This document shows, one piece after another, positions 5,295-47,595 of a stretch of 64,000 bases of DNA. The stretch's first letter is position 1. Every line of letters starts with the position of its first letter. Made by a program: the position numbers and the translations under genes. Under the pieces are notes generated by a model. The model did not search any database. It was not told the DNA's origin and saw nothing but the letters and a program-made list of their open reading frames with translations. The stretch lies in the NCBI RefSeq assembly GCF_024055595.1, contig NZ_JAMXOF010000001.1, positions 186,001 to 250,000 of the forward strand, written 5' to 3'. Source of the stretch: Mucilaginibacter aurantiaciroseus. Its GTDB lineage: Bacteria; Bacteroidota; Bacteroidia; Sphingobacteriales; Sphingobacteriaceae.

Positions 5295-5336
5295 CGGTAA
5301 CCTTGAAAATCAAAACGTTAACAAAAGATAAGAAAA

Positions 5337-5432
5337 GCCCCCTCTATATCTCCCCGGTAGGAGAAACTTTAAATATAGAAGGCAATAAAGTTGTATGAAA
5401 GTCCTCCCTTCCGAGGAGGATTAGGAGGGGCT
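5337..5432. repeat. Inverted pair of the AGCCCCCTC repeat (PPTGG-type)
   Basis: Two copies of a roughly 35-bp repeat face each other: AGCCCCCTCTATATCTCCCC onward at 5337-5372, and its divergent inverse at 5398-5432. The pair can form a long hairpin, followed on the minus strand by a T-rich stretch, so it may also terminate the crp operon. The same family lies inside leuS (30897-30942) and upstream of leuS (31869-31904). The second copy supplies the last codons and the TAA stop of the crp-like gene. Confidence 0.8.
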
Positions 5433-6029
5433 TAATATCCTCTTCCTTATCCTTGAAAGCGATACCGGCGTTATCCCTAAAAAGTTGGCGATGTAATGTT
5501 GTGGTATGCGCTGCAAAACATCTTTGCCGGTTTGCAGGAGTTTTAGGTACCGTTCTTCGGGTGTTTCGGTTAGGAAGGATGTTACGCGGTCTTCGTAGCA
5601 CATCAGGTAATGCTCGGCCACCAGGCGGCCAAAGCGTTCCATTTTGTAGGCCAGCATGGGGTTGTTGAGCATGGCATCCATGTTTTTCCTGTTGATGAGG
5701 ATGATGGTGCTGGGTTCCAGCGCTTGTATGTAATTAATGGCAGGCTCACCCGTAAGGAAACTTTTGTAGGAGCTTGCCAGTTCGTTCTCGAAACTGAAGT
5801 AGCCCGTAATTTCGTTACCATCTATGATGTTATAATAACGAACAGATCCGCTGAGAATAAAGCCGAAGTAATTACAAACCTTGCCTGCTTCAGCAAAATG
5901 CTGTTTCTTTTTATAATGCGATACCTGTAAATGTTGGATAAACACGATCCACTCGGCCTCGTTAAACGTAACGTAGGGCGTAATGCGCTCACGAAACTGG
6001 TTTAACTGTGCCTGTGTTAGCGCATCCAT
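5421..6029 (-). CDS. Crp/Fnr-family transcriptional regulator
   Basis: 202 residues. The N-terminal part (about 30-120) is a cyclic-nucleotide-binding-type beta barrel (HFAEAGKVCNYFGFILSGSVRYY). The C-terminal winged helix includes PQHYIANFLGITPVSLSRIR, the recognition region common to Bacteroidota Crp-like proteins. No FNR-type cysteine cluster is seen, so an oxygen sensor is unlikely; the ligand is unknown. The start overlaps the end of ubiA by 13 bp, so the gene is the last of an engB-ubiA-crp operon. The final SPS residues and the stop codon come from an interspersed repeat, so the natural C-terminus has probably been replaced. Confidence 0.88.
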   Translation of the reverse strand: MDALTQAQLNQFRERITPYVTFNEAEWIVFIQHLQVSHYKKKQHFAEAGKVCNYFGFILSGSVRYYNIIDGNEITGYFSFENELASSYKSFLTGEPAINYIQALEPSTIILINRKNMDAMLNNPMLAYKMERFGRLVAEHYLMCYEDRVTSFLTETPEERYLKLLQTGKDVLQRIPQHYIANFLGITPVSLSRIRKRILSPS

Positions 6030-29003: not shown

Positions 29004-31811
29004 TTAAATAACGATGTTTACAATACGGCCTTTTACAACAATTACTTTTTTAGGGGTTTTGCCATCAAGGTATTTTTGCACATCGGCATTGGCTAAAATT
29101 GCAGCTTCAATATCAGCTACTTCCATAGACAACGAAAGGCTGACATTAGTTTTCATTTTTCCGTTAAAAGATACCGGGTAGCTAAATTCCTCCTCAACCA
29201 GGTAGGCCGGGTTAAATTTAGGGTATGCCGCGGTAGAGATACTGCCCGCCGGGTTACCCAGCAATACCCAAAGTTCCTCGCAAATATGCGGGGCATAGGG
29301 GGCAAGGGTAATAACCAGTTCCTGTAGGATAGCGCGTTTGTTGCACTTCAGGTCGGTAAGTTCGTTAACGGCTATCATAAAGCTGGATACGGATGTATTG
29401 AACGAGAAACGTTCAATATCCTGCTCCACCTTCTGGATGATCTTGTGAAGTGATTTTAGCTCGGCTTTAGTCGGTGCCTCGTTGCTTACGTTAAAGTTCC
29501 AGTCCGCATCATGGAATAACCTCCAGAATTTACGCAGGAACTTGAACACCCCCTCGATACCATTGGTATTCCAAGGTTTGCTTTGCTCCAGCGGACCAAG
29601 GAACATCTCGTACATACGCAAAGTATCCGCACCGTAACGGGCTATCAGATCATCCGGGTTAACCACGTTGAATTTGGACTTGGACATTTTCTCCACTTCA
29701 ACGCCGCAAATGTATTTTCCGTTTTCCAGGATAAATTCCGCGTCAGCAAAATCTTCTCTCCAGGTTTTAAACTTGTTTAGGTTCAAAACTTCGTTCTCTA
29801 CTATGTTTACATCAACATGTAGCGGAGAGGTTTTGTATTCTTTGATCAAACCATGCGATACAAAAGTGTTGGTTCCTTTGCCTTCGTCATCAATTAAACG
29901 ATATACAAAATTACTCCGTCCCTGTATCATCCCCTGGTTGATCAACTTCTTGAAAGGTTCTTCCTCAACCACTTTGCCTATATCCTTCAAAAACTTGTTC
30001 CAGAAACGGCTGTAGAGCAAGTGACCTGTAGCATGCTCGCTGCCGCCAATGTATAAATCTACGTCCTTCCAGTATTCGATCGCTTCGCGCGATGCAAACT
30101 CTCGGTCGTTATGGGCATCCATATAGCGGTACCAATACCAGCTGCTGCCTGCCCAACCCGGCATGGTGCTAAGTTCATATTCACCCTCCGGGTGTTTCCA
30201 ATCGGTCGCGCGGCCTAATGGCGGTTCGCCGCTTTCGGTTGGTAAGTATTTATCTATCTCGGGTAATAATAATGGCAAGTGTTGCTCGTCAATAAGGTAT
30301 GGAAAGCCACCTTTAAAGTAAACCGGTACAGGTTCTCCCCAGTAGCGCTGGCGGCCAAAAATGGCATCGCGCATCCTAAAGTTCACTTTTGCTTTACCCA
30401 AGCCCAGTTCATCCAGTTTAGCAACTACAGCTGCGGATGCTTCTTTGTAACCCAAGCCGTTTATAAAATCGCTGTTGATGTATTTACCTTCTTTGGTTGG
30501 GTCGGCTTCTACCTCAATATTTTGGATATCGATGATCGGGATGATGGGCAAGTTAAAATGCTTCGCAAACACAAAGTCGCGCTGATCTCCCGATGGTACG
30601 GCCATAACCGCGCCTGTACCGTAACCGGCCAATACATAATCAGCTATCCAAACCGGGATCTGGGTGCCGTTAAGCGGGTTGGTTACATAGCTGCCCGTAA
30701 ATGCGCCCGATACGGTTTTGGTATCGGCCATACGGTCCAATTCGCTTTTCTTTTTAGTTTGGGTAATATAGGCATCAATATCGGCCTTTTGCTCCGGCGT
30801 GGTTAGTTCGGCAACCAACTCATGCTCGGGGGCTATTACCAAAAAGCTTACACCGAAAACGGTATCAACACGGGTGGTGAAAACTTCTATGTAGGAAGCC
30901 CCCTCTAAATCTCCCCCGGTAGGAGGAACTTTCTCTAATGGAAACCTTACACTTGCGCCAACGCTTTTACCTATCCAGTTGCGCTGCATTTCTTTCAAAG
31001 GCTCTGGCCAATCAATATGGTTTAAACCTGCTAATAAACGCTGTGCGTAGGCGGTGATGCGCATACTCCACTGCATCATTTTCTTTTGCTCTACAGGGTA
31101 GCCCCCGCGCTCGCTAAAGCCATCTTTTACCTCGTCGTTAGCCAGTACGGTACCCAGTGCAGGGCACCAGTTTACGGTACTTTCGCGTAGGTAGGTTAGG
31201 CGGTATTTTAACAGTTCGGCTTGTTGTTGCTGCTCGCTAAAGGCTTTCCACTCATGGGCGGTAAAGCTTAGTATTTCTTCATCGCAAACAGCGTTGATCC
31301 CTGCCGAGCCTTTGCTTTCAAAATGCTCAACCAGGTTGGCAATGCTTTGCGCTTTATCCGCACCCTTATCATAGTAGCTATTGAATAACTGGATAAAGAT
31401 CCATTGTGTCCATTTATAATAATCTGGCGAACTGGTGCGCACTTCCCTGTCCCAATCGAACGAGAAACCTATCTGGTCCAGCTGGCGGCGGTAGGTGGCA
31501 ATGTTAGCCTCGGTAGTAACTGAAGGGTGCTGCCCGGTTTGTATGGCGTACTGCTCGGCCGGTAAGCCAAAGCTATCGTAACCCATTGGGTGCAACACGT
31601 TAAAACCTTTTAAACGTTTATAACGTGCAAAAATATCTGAGGCAATATAACCCAGCGGGTGGCCAACATGCAGCCCCGCGCCAGATGGGTAGGGGAACAT
31701 ATCCAGCACATAATACTTGGGTTTGTTGCTTGTGTTTTCGGCCTTAAAGGTTTTATGCTCGGCCCAAAACTGCTGCCACTTTTGCTCTATATCTTTAAAT
31801 TGATAATCCAT
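29004..31811 (-). CDS. leuS: Leucyl-tRNA synthetase carrying a repeat-encoded insert
   Basis: 935 residues. The catalytic signatures are HVGHP (48-51, HIGH motif) in [15 protein letters not shown] and KMSKSK near residue 707. The editing domain is present, with [11 protein letters not shown] and [16 protein letters not shown], so proofreading is likely kept. It charges tRNA-Leu. Residues about 292-305 ([13 protein letters not shown]) come from a copy of an interspersed repeat read in frame, between the catalytic core and the editing domain. A one-mismatch -7 box (TATTTTCG on the minus strand, 31837-31844) lies about 25 bp upstream. Confidence 0.96.
30897..30942 (-). repeat. PPTGG-type repeat copy inside leuS
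   Basis: AAGCCCCCTCTAAATCTCCC continuing to CGGTAGGAGGAACTTTC matches the copy at 31869-31904 almost base for base, and half of the pair at 5337-5432. It keeps the leuS frame open. Confidence 0.88.
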
Positions 31812-31868
31812 TTGTTTATTTACCGTATTGAGGTTGCGAAAATAGTAAAAACTGCTTTAAAATCAGCT

Positions 31869-31972
31869 AAACCCCCTCTAAATCTCCCCCGGTAGGGGAG
31901 ACTTCACTGATCAACAGGAAGAGCTTTCAGCTCCCTCTTCTTCGGACAGGGCCGGGGAGAGGCCAAAGTTTC
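31869..31972. repeat. PPTGG-type repeat and a second G/C-rich repeat upstream of leuS
   Basis: 31869-31904 holds the CCCCCTCTAAATCTCCCCC repeat. 31929-31967 holds a different G/C-rich element (CTCCCTCTTCTTCGGACAGG then GCCGGGGAGAGG), which reads inverted relative to the first. They occupy most of the gap between leuS and the DUF1634 gene. Confidence 0.75.
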
Positions 31973-32046
31973 AATAAAGTCTATATATTATATAGGTTAA
32001 CATTAAAGTTGGCAAGCCATTTTTTAAGCGTTATTTTCGACACTTA

Positions 32047-45943: not shown

Positions 45944-46260
45944 CAATCACTGGCCTAAGTTTCCAACTTAGACCCAAAATGAGTTAAGCGTTTTGTCTTC
46001 GCGGGGTCTTCTGAAAGAGACCCTGCGCCGTGTGTAAGGCAGCGCAGGGTCCACGATGTGAGACCCTGCGGCGACAAGTTGACTGTTGTCTTCGCAGGGT
46101 CTTCTGAAAGATACCTGCGCCGTGTGCAAGGCAGCGCAGGGTCCACGATGTGAGACCCTGCGGCGACATATAATTCAATCACTGGTCTAAGTTGAAAACT
46201 TAGACCAGGCTGTGAGACCCTGCTCGTATGTAGGGCAACTGGGTCCACGATTTGACACAC
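45944..46260 (+). repeat. Hairpin-repeat array left of the TPR gene
   Basis: Two units of 93-bp period start at 45993 and 46086. Each holds two hairpins with the same GCAGGGTC / GACCCTGC arms. A third, degenerate unit covers 46209-46268. A separate palindrome (CTAAGTT / AACTTAG) with the flank CAATCACTGG occurs at 45944-45973 and 46175-46207, bracketing the dimer. The space from the carA terminator to the TPR gene is filled by these elements. Confidence 0.88.
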
Positions 46261-46342
46261 TGCGGCGACAAAAAAAGCTTTTTTTATTTGGCCTAAACCA
46301 ATAATTATTTAATACATTTAGATCAAACCTATTCCACTTGTT

Positions 46343-46996
46343 ATGAAATTTTTTTTACCATTAGTTGTAATTGCCTGTCTTTTTGTAAGCTGTGTACAAT
46401 CCCAGGATTGCCCGGAAAATATCAACAAATTACCCATGTATGGCGGCGTTAAAAAATGTCCGGAACAAATAGGTTACGATGCGAAATTTATTGCATCTAC
46501 CAGTAAAGGATATCCAAATAGGAAAGATGCGGCAAAACATTTTGTAAAGCGTGGGTGGGAATATTTATACGCTCAAAAATTAGATACCTCAATGATGAGG
46601 TTTAACCAGGCGTGGTTATTGGATAGCACAAACTATCAAATTTATTGGGGTTTTGGAAATCTTTTAGGGCTTCAAAGAAAATATTCAGAGTCGCTTAAAC
46701 ACTTTAAAAAAGCTTTAAAACTGTATCCAAATGATGAAAAAGTTTGGCAGGATTATTCAATCAGCTTAGGAAATCTTTTTTTTGAAACTAAAGATGTTAG
46801 CTATTTAAATACTTCAATAGATGCGTTGAAAAAAGCTGTCATTATTAGTCCCCAAAATCCTCACCCATATGCACAGTTGACCGCGGCTTATACCTACTTT
46901 ACTCAAAAAGACAGCGCATATAAGTACTTGAAAATTACAGATCAAATTGACCCAACAGCAATCGATCTTGAAGTTCGAAAAATGCTTGACAAATGA
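46343..46996 (+). CDS. TPR-repeat lipoprotein between repeat arrays
   Basis: 217 residues. A lipobox LFVSC puts the lipidated cysteine at 17. Residues 60-210 hold about four tetratricopeptide repeats (for example WGFGNLLGLQRKYSESLKHF then KKALKLYPND, and ALKKAVIISPQNPHPYAQLT). TPR lipoproteins scaffold protein complexes at the membrane; the partner is unknown. The gene is strongly A+T-rich beside its G+C-rich flanks, and it sits between two direct copies of the same repeat dimer, whose right copy supplies its TGA stop. It looks like an inserted cassette. Confidence 0.8.
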   Translation: MKFFLPLVVIACLFVSCVQSQDCPENINKLPMYGGVKKCPEQIGYDAKFIASTSKGYPNRKDAAKHFVKRGWEYLYAQKLDTSMMRFNQAWLLDSTNYQIYWGFGNLLGLQRKYSESLKHFKKALKLYPNDEKVWQDYSISLGNLFFETKDVSYLNTSIDALKKAVIISPQNPHPYAQLTAAYTYFTQKDSAYKYLKITDQIDPTAIDLEVRKMLDK

Positions 46997-47175
46997 CTGT
47001 TGTCTTCGCAGGGTCTTCTGAAAGAGACTTGCGCCGTGTGTAAGGCAGCGCAGGGTCTACGATGTGAGACCCTGCGGCGACAAGTTGACTGTTGTCTTCG
47101 CAGGGTCTTCTGAAAGAGACCCTGCGCCGTGTGCAAGGCAGCGCAGGGTCCACGATGTGAGACCCTGCGGCGGCA
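46994..47175 (+). repeat. Hairpin-repeat dimer right of the TPR gene
   Basis: Units start at 47000 and 47092. The first unit carries GTGTGTAAGG and the second GTGTGCAAGG, exactly as in the left dimer (45993 and 46086), so the whole ordered dimer has been duplicated in the same orientation. The linker TGACTG at 46994 contains the stop codon of the TPR gene. Confidence 0.9.
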
Positions 47176-47178
47176 AAA

Positions 47179-47595
47179 GTCGTCGATTAGTGCTTCGTTA
47201 GCTGCGGCAGTAAGTTACCTCAAGCCTGTGGATGTTACTTTTCTTTGCCTTAGCCGCAAAGAAAGGTAACCAAAAGAAAAGGCCAAGTCAAAGCGACGCT
47301 TCTGCCCGCCCTGTCGGTTCTTAACGCTTTCTTGCCGCATGCGCGGACTTCGACGCTAAACCGCCATTTTCGCCATACACCCGGCCCGCCCGCTTTGACG
47401 TTTAGGGCCGACGCTTTTTTTAAACATTGTCATCCTGAGCGATAGCGAACGATCTATTATAGAACTTTGCTATCGACGCGGTACAGCCGCGTGTTTTTTC
47501 TTTGGTTCGTTTCTTTTTTGCGCCAAAAAAGAAATGAACATCCACAGGCTACTCAATAACTTACTGCCATTCCTAACGAAGAACTAACAGACGAC
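47179..47595. repeat. 417-bp palindromic element with 58-bp imperfect inverted ends
   Basis: The left end 47179-47236 and the inverted right end 47537-47595 share about three quarters of their bases, with exact blocks GGCAGTAAGTTA, GCCTGTGGATGTT and CTTCGTTAG. Inside are two smaller hairpins (TTTCTTTG...CAAAGAAA and TTTCTTTTTTG / CAAAAAAGAAA) and a TGTCATCCTGAGCGATAGCG segment typical of widespread intergenic repeats. No ORF or transposase is present: a MITE-like element. Confidence 0.75.

Follow-up and report, generated by a model that had tools for sequence, protein, structure and literature searches.

REPINs are built as inverted doublets of hairpin arms. Short palindromic repeats also enter coding sequence: Rickettsia palindromic elements (RPEs) lie in frame in protein genes, and REPs have been published inside ORFs, both according to the accessible part of PMC3733652. 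For homing endonucleases, association with a splicing element is what allows them to invade conserved genes and to persist there (PMC3943268, accessible part). The ShiLan insertion in a phage methylase is homing-like and open in the frame of its host, with no detectable splicing element; its HNH nuclease lies out of frame, and similar out-of-frame cases occur in other phages and in prokaryotes (PMC11855218, accessible part). That part of the paper uses neither the word palindrome nor the term inverted repeat.

We analysed a window of 64,000 nucleotides of Mucilaginibacter aurantiaciroseus (NZ_JAMXOF010000001.1, positions 186,001 to 250,000), in which leuS contains a repeat in frame. We propose, with a probability of roughly 60%, that this insert is the worn arm of a mobile element, which has a short form of two arms and a long form with a DUF559 nuclease, and which resides both between and in genes.

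A palindromic arm in frame in leuS

The relevant features of the window are the following.

29004-31811, minus strand: leuS, leucyl-tRNA synthetase (LeuRS), 935 aa; ORF list, Pfam matches tRNA-synt_1, tRNA-synt_1_2 and Anticodon_1, matches to solved LeuRS
30896-30931, minus strand: single decayed arm of a presumed double-hairpin element, in frame in leuS at site S1, residues 294-306; repeat-family comparison and genome repeat search
31869-31904, plus strand: intergenic arm of the same family, directly upstream of leuS; 0 mismatches to the 32-base consensus
31930-31964, minus strand: probable inverted partner of the arm at 31869-31904, second sub-family; read by eye, resembles right arms in leuS of relatives
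5335-5370, plus strand: left arm of an intergenic double-hairpin element; repeat comparison
5399-5433, minus strand: right inverted arm of the same element; 8 of 32 mismatches to the consensus

The initial annotation had described an interspersed repeat of 46 bp at 30897-30942, matching 31869-31904 and an inverted pair at 5337-5432. The presence of an interspersed repeat in frame in this essential gene is real, and so is the match, but the repeat measures only 36 bp and is 89% identical to 31869-31904 in an ungapped alignment. The inverted pair exists as well, with the left arm at 5335-5370 (69% identity to the leuS repeat ungapped, 92% with a gap) and a divergent partner at about 5399-5433. 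A peptide of 13 residues is indeed encoded, at LeuRS residues 294-306 instead of about 292-305. It was placed between the catalytic core and the editing domain; the Pfam editing domain spans residues 277-466, however, and the repeat-coded residues fall within it. Nor is it correct that other LeuRS proteins all pass directly to the TTR motif, as the solved LeuRS 7nua aligns at the repeat site without gaps and has a loop of similar length.

The repeat belongs to a large family. A 101-base query finds at least 25 places in the genome at E <= 0.001, and a query covering 31862-31974 finds at least 39 places in 3.93 Mb at the same threshold, the query's own place being included in both counts; of the latter, 38 correspond to the A arm or to the query's own sequence and one to the other arm. 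Among 30 of these places inspected as loci, many consist of two inverted arms about 25-30 bases apart, and single arms and weak partners are likewise present. Typical arms of the leuS-type repeat are AAGCCCCACCCAAACCCTCCCCGGAAGGGAGGGCTT and AAGTCTCCCCTACCGGGGGAGATTTAGAGGGGGCTT. A composite made of two typical arms folds into an outer stem with inner hairpins (z -4.2); the B-type element of one relative reaches z -7.8, the intergenic element 5333-5438 reaches z -2.1, and for 31865-31968 folded as a whole z is an unremarkable -1.1. The arm in leuS has lost its hairpin, with z +1.2 against -1.8 for the consensus arm. Because of this broken hairpin, and because the relatives L112 and L113 share its right arm behind a left arm, the source copy is likely a remnant of a larger element. 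It may not be a fresh insertion.

A start-to-stop frame of at least 80 codons runs over the arm in 10 of the 30 inspected places, and six of these ten were checked besides leuS. NCBIfam names and translations show that miaB and ispG each contain an arm in frame and that recJ has one at its tail, so the same peptide type does recur in other proteins of this genome, as the initial annotation had suggested one might look for; by eye, IspG has a second arm-type peptide. Arms were also found at the starts of aroA, ilvN and HAD-hydrolase frames, where they may lie upstream of the true start. Elsewhere in the window, at 45987-47214, a 217-aa frame (46343-46996) is bordered on either side by near-tandem copies, each about 92 bases long, of another GC-rich palindromic family.

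Two variable sites in LeuRS of the genus

The LeuRS query matched in 149 of 149 Mucilaginibacter genomes, in some only through paralogues or fragments. Loci sampled from 130 of them gave 129 proteins of 781-1187 aa, the remaining locus (L108) giving no protein. LeuRS appears to be single-copy, since among the matches listed no genome had two places above 1000 bits. Two sites are variable: S1, the site of the source repeat, and S2, at about residue 541, just before a stretch of 15 residues. S1 ranges in length from 8 to 171 aa and is occupied in 27 of the 129 proteins, 26 times by an arm (at least 7 bits) and once by a nuclease. At S2, 40 of 129 are occupied (24 by an arm, 16 by a nuclease), and one further LeuRS has another insert there.

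Close relatives whose LeuRS is 92-93% identical (L012 and L013) lack the source repeat, in line with the initial expectation, and the nearest relatives of the source LeuRS carry different repeats at S1. The labels C_TTH, D_SQE, E_ISDF and "other" that we used for S1 are rough peptide patterns and only show that several repeat types are found there. AT-rich repeats (ACTCACCACTCA, GAGTCAAGAGTCAA and a palindrome of AATTTCGGATTTC) lie in frame at S1 in many Mucilaginibacter. It had been argued that the family is tolerated in coding sequence because one of its six frames is open. In-frame residence is correct, but the explanation is too passive for a site that is reused by several repeat families and by nuclease cassettes.

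We mapped the states of both sites on a LeuRS tree of 126 rows, from which L078, L106 and L138 were omitted as presumably incomplete. The presence of an arm or nuclease at S1 takes 22 changes for 27 rows, where shuffling gives 24.8 on average and 13 of 200 shuffles are as low, and at S2 31 changes for 39 rows (shuffled mean 33.4, 40 of 200 as low). The states are thus spread almost at random over the tree, and both sites turn over fast. The "DUF559" label at S2, with L113 included, takes 14 changes for 17 rows (shuffled mean 16.3, 2 of 200 as low). So high a count speaks for the element model, but the nucleases are still slightly more clustered than chance, which counts against it.

Two other observations concern the same protein. 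In L113 (genome G081), S2 holds another kind of insert, in frame and about 128 aa long; its host-like flank is repeated (ATKW ... ATDWN), its best Pfam match has E 0.19, and by eye it has no arms. Across the genus, a third LeuRS stretch at about 638-664 is highly variable in length and sequence and unlike the repeats.

DUF559 cassettes and their hosts

The S2 cassettes contain a DUF559 domain in frame, mostly between inverted arms. All 17 cassette proteins scanned match DUF559 (PF04480) with 101-214 bits, the cut-off being 20.6. The nuclease resembles the homing endonuclease I-Bth0305I by profile (4.9e-6) and by fold (E 1.6e-4, probability 1.00), and the Neisseria DUF559 protein 3HRL matches it at E 1e-30; these two are also the best fold matches of the isolated domain model (pLDDT 85.5), in agreement with the profile search. 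Eighteen residues are invariant in 34 of 34 nucleases, and the core residues are kept. A model of the LeuRS-nuclease fusion (mean pLDDT 68) does not allow a detailed reading: block means are 50-86 over nuclease residues 581-680 and 25-35 over the arm-coded linkers 541-570 and 691-710.

DUF559 matches were obtained in 132 of 149 genus genomes. The best 30 loci all lie in long frames, whose hosts (representatives checked with Pfam) are a methylmalonyl-CoA-mutase/MeaB fusion, presumably IcmF (12 loci), an Lhr-like helicase (9) and LeuRS (4), the other five standing before HisF. Matches ranking lower are shorter, stand-alone frames, and among 20 further loci there are also TruB tails and one HisH fusion. 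Elsewhere in the family, genera outside Mucilaginibacter have DUF559 at S1 itself, some of them with palindromes of another kind around it.

Of at least 481 confirmed candidates from a phylum-wide search of named genomes with nuclease query A1, the best 80 were kept. Seventy-seven of these lie inside long host frames, a share biased upward because the query came from in-frame cassettes; three frames are under 240 codons, one at a contig end. Judged by flank motifs and reading, with NCBIfam and Pfam names obtained for ten loci, the hosts are LeuRS S1 (16), IcmF site one (16), the S2 group (13, one of which, L343, is at a further LeuRS position), RecG (8), MetH at several points (8), IcmF site two (5), TruB (3) and a type ISP enzyme (2), with one locus each in MetRS, UvrA, TsaD, TsaB and DegT and one unassigned locus (L333), IspG-like by eye. 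By title or placement 79 of the 80 are Bacteroidota, and one is Stygiobacter (Ignavibacteriota).

A MetH frame in a Cytophagales MAG (L298) has two DUF559 stretches, and at G298:C58:157936-159429 two DUF559 matches lie in one frame of 1240 codons in another genome. Fusion of DUF559 in frame to the N-terminus of HisF was seen in eleven loci, one of which (L178) is fused to HisH too. This is possibly a stable fusion.

Palindromic arms around the nuclease

Three nucleotide models of arms (A, left arm and B) gave 597 matches of at least 10 bits in 974 kb, each match being counted where those of different models overlap; first-order resampled sequence gave none. Inverted arms stand on both sides of the nuclease in 24 of 25 non-HisF genus loci and on one side in the last (L169); no arm lies within 400 bases in any of the five genus HisF loci. 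For the best 80 named loci, the flank-to-flank inverted-repeat score has a median of 22, compared with 9 for control flanks shifted by 600 bases, and 64 loci pass the 95% level of that control, including 13/13 at LeuRS S2, 15/16 at S1, 3/3 in TruB and 1/3 among frames under 240 codons. Flanks paired across different loci reach a median of 12 and a 95% level of 24, so this pairing does not discriminate; such pairs score high because the arms share families, and we rely on the displaced control instead.

The arms themselves are conserved as DNA. At fourfold sites, 46 of 1088 comparisons differ in the arm (4%) and 10561 of 20053 in the host (53%), for 13 sequences whose pairwise counts are not independent. 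The variation falls mostly in the hairpin loop, except for one divergent left arm. Arm DNA is therefore constrained or homogenised.

Stand-alone DUF559 genes of the genus and family lie between inverted repeats in 12 of 17 cases, their palindromes being of other sequence. The arm of one such gene (L191, genome G022) has 79 genomic matches, 72 of which form 36 doublets. These doublets are REPIN-like: 34 of 36 have the same +/- order, and in 33 of 36 the gap is 14-53 bases. An arm of the same type flanks a DUF559 gene on both sides in G078 and on one side in G116 and G024. It is present in 51 of 54 genomes with that nuclease clade (E <= 1e-30; some carriers, the source genome among them, have stop codons in the nuclease alignment) and in 59 of 95 others, with a Fisher p of 6e-6 when kinship is ignored. 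The 59 genomes that have the arm and lack the clade count against the element model.

A model of the element and its difficulties

In the model that we suggest, the complete short form would be about 100 bp long and consist of two arms, each of about 36 bp, hairpin-forming and inverted to each other, with a spacer of about 25-30 bp; in the long form, the spacer would hold a DUF559 nuclease of Vsr/EDxHD type. Both forms could reside intergenically or, where they insert into an open frame in a loop close to a conserved motif, in housekeeping genes. Within a host gene the element would be translated together with the host protein, its arms forming a linker rich in Pro, Gly, Ser and Glu and its nuclease a side domain, and the insert would stay in the mature protein. 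The nuclease might cut empty alleles or arm-bearing sites, and repair would then copy the element in, resulting in homing-like spread. Short forms would be internally deleted or mobilised in trans. The anatomy and distribution of nuclease-plus-palindrome elements are well supported: the sequences show residence in frame in many hosts, inverted arms at most sites, conserved residues and purifying selection in the nuclease, nucleases that cluster by site, arm DNA that is conserved and an occurrence that is patchy. The likeness to I-Bth0305I, the inverted repeats around stand-alone genes and the association of the G022-type arm with its nuclease clade also speak for the model. Mobility by cutting and repair is what we infer.

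Besides the points already named, several observations count against the element model. Firstly, the source genome has no arm-flanked nuclease: its sole DUF559 match (L141, C2:81805-82146) has no arm within 400 bases. The extended alignment of L141 runs into stop codons. Secondly, the inverted-repeat threshold is exceeded by none of the eight RecG loci nor by the single TsaD and TsaB loci, and by only 4 of the 11 HisF/HisH fusions. Thirdly, no clean target-site duplication was seen by eye at S2, where filled alleles replace host residues. Such a duplication, together with a related transposase, would mark a MITE of a DNA transposon; the gene families that our search covered were Y1_Tnp and DUF559.

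Selection, history and alternative readings

DUF559 could instead be a domesticated part of the host enzymes, with the arm peptides as mere linkers, which we consider unlikely as a general account. Selection and descent are among its arguments. For the four closest pairs of the 16 nucleases at LeuRS S2, dN/dS is 0.031-0.045, which indicates purifying selection, and in the three closest pairs the synonymous difference is host-like (0.47, 0.38 and 0.58 in the nuclease, 0.50, 0.50 and 0.59 in the host). These three pairs look like recent vertical descent under constraint; a host role is possible for this reason, and this too speaks against the element model. When all 120 pairs are taken together, the nuclease has a median pN/pS of 0.19, compared with 0.11 in LeuRS. 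Nuclease and LeuRS distances show a Spearman correlation of 0.00 (984 of 2000 permutations as high), which is only suggestive, because the agreement between different parts of LeuRS itself is just 0.38-0.57, and samples of 123 columns correlate with the rest at a median of 0.57 and a minimum of 0.07.

A tree of 120 nuclease domains, built from few columns for that many rows, groups the nucleases by insertion site: 25 label changes are needed, where 19 is the minimum and shuffling gives 86 on average. This clustering supports the element model; the single nuclease group at several sites is also an argument for domestication. One side of a branch each is occupied by IcmF site one (support 73), IcmF site two (94), RecG (91), Lhr (97), TruB (68) and HisF (96); LeuRS S1 takes 7 label changes, S2 4 and stand-alone genes 5. 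The lack of inverted repeats in the RecG cassettes and in most HisF/HisH fusions also speaks for domestication, which may hold for these hosts. Against it stand the patchy presence at S2, the unrelated hosts, the conserved arm DNA, and the same arms that occur by the dozen between genes with no nuclease.

The arms could also be REPs or REPINs moved by an IS200-type RAYT transposase, with the nuclease as a passenger between them. Doublets of REPIN type are indeed present among the source copies and in G022, the RAYT family Y1_Tnp has matches in 56 of 61 genus genomes, and REPs within ORFs are on record, as cited above. Yet no A- or B-type arm was found within 400 bases of any of the 31 RAYT loci examined, the RAYT locus of the source genome (L009) has a different palindrome and array, and what does stand between such arms, in many hosts, is the nuclease, which also occurs as a free gene. 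We therefore reject RAYT as the partner of the A/B arms and regard this reading as quite improbable. The RAYT gene at L009 (contig C2) stands beside a tandem array of 117-base units with a palindrome of their own, CCGTTGGCTTTAGCCAACGG.

Removal of the insert as an intein or self-splicing intron is very improbable. The position near conserved motifs in conserved proteins does resemble the homing of inteins and introns, but seven cassette loci gave no Rfam match at gathering score, Pfam scans of 17 cassette proteins (E <= 1e-5 and 1e-8) gave no intein model, and the frames read are open throughout, with DUF559 as the sole Pfam match over the cassettes, in some together with MTES_1575. Finally, the leuS segment could be a long-standing variable loop of the usual kind whose resemblance to the repeat is due to chance, as the 7nua loop and the wide length range of S1 might suggest. 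This is hardly credible and is rejected in view of copies throughout the genome and of near relatives with different repeat families at the same point.

Comparison with known systems

Taken together, the worn arm of a nuclease-associated element remains our preferred reading of the leuS insert. A search of the open literature, limited to titles and the openings of abstracts, found no description of DUF559 cassettes in frame in host proteins. Whether Bacteroidota harbor a whole class of selfish elements, in which a Vsr/EDxHD-type nuclease and two palindromic arms would home without splicing, be retained in the mature protein (sometimes twice) and shed REPIN-like short forms genome-wide, is to us an even bet. 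Should the cassettes be translated and kept in synthetases, helicases and metabolic enzymes throughout the phylum, they would form a large exception to the rule of the splicing partner. They would also be a source for many interspersed repeats and offer a nuclease candidate for REPIN-like elements that have no RAYT, and their positions would map where, in nature, essential enzymes tolerate an insertion.

RPEs are not known to carry a nuclease. The elements described here resemble them as short palindromic repeats in frame in protein genes, with TruB as a host in both (PMC3733652, accessible part); in the source genome this RPE-type feature is found in leuS, miaB and ispG. They are set apart by description through the double-arm form, the nuclease-bearing long form and another phylum. 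With REP/REPIN and RAYT they share inverted doublets of hairpin arms, many dispersed copies and a partner gene between arms; the partner here is a DUF559/EDxHD-like nuclease, and the 31 RAYT loci are free of A/B arms.

Likeness to the EDxHD (Vsr-like) nuclease I-Bth0305I extends to the catalytic domain, by profile and fold, to site-specific lineages and to patchy occurrence. I-Bth0305I was deposited as a mobile intron protein, whereas the domain here is fused in frame to its host, stands between palindromic arms and has no splicing part that we could find. The same domain is present in Neisseria 3HRL, deposited as an endonuclease-like chain of 104 residues. The ShiLan insertion, as far as the accessible part of its description goes, is likewise a homing-like insert open in the host frame with no splicing element; in the elements described here, by difference, the DUF559 nuclease itself is in frame.
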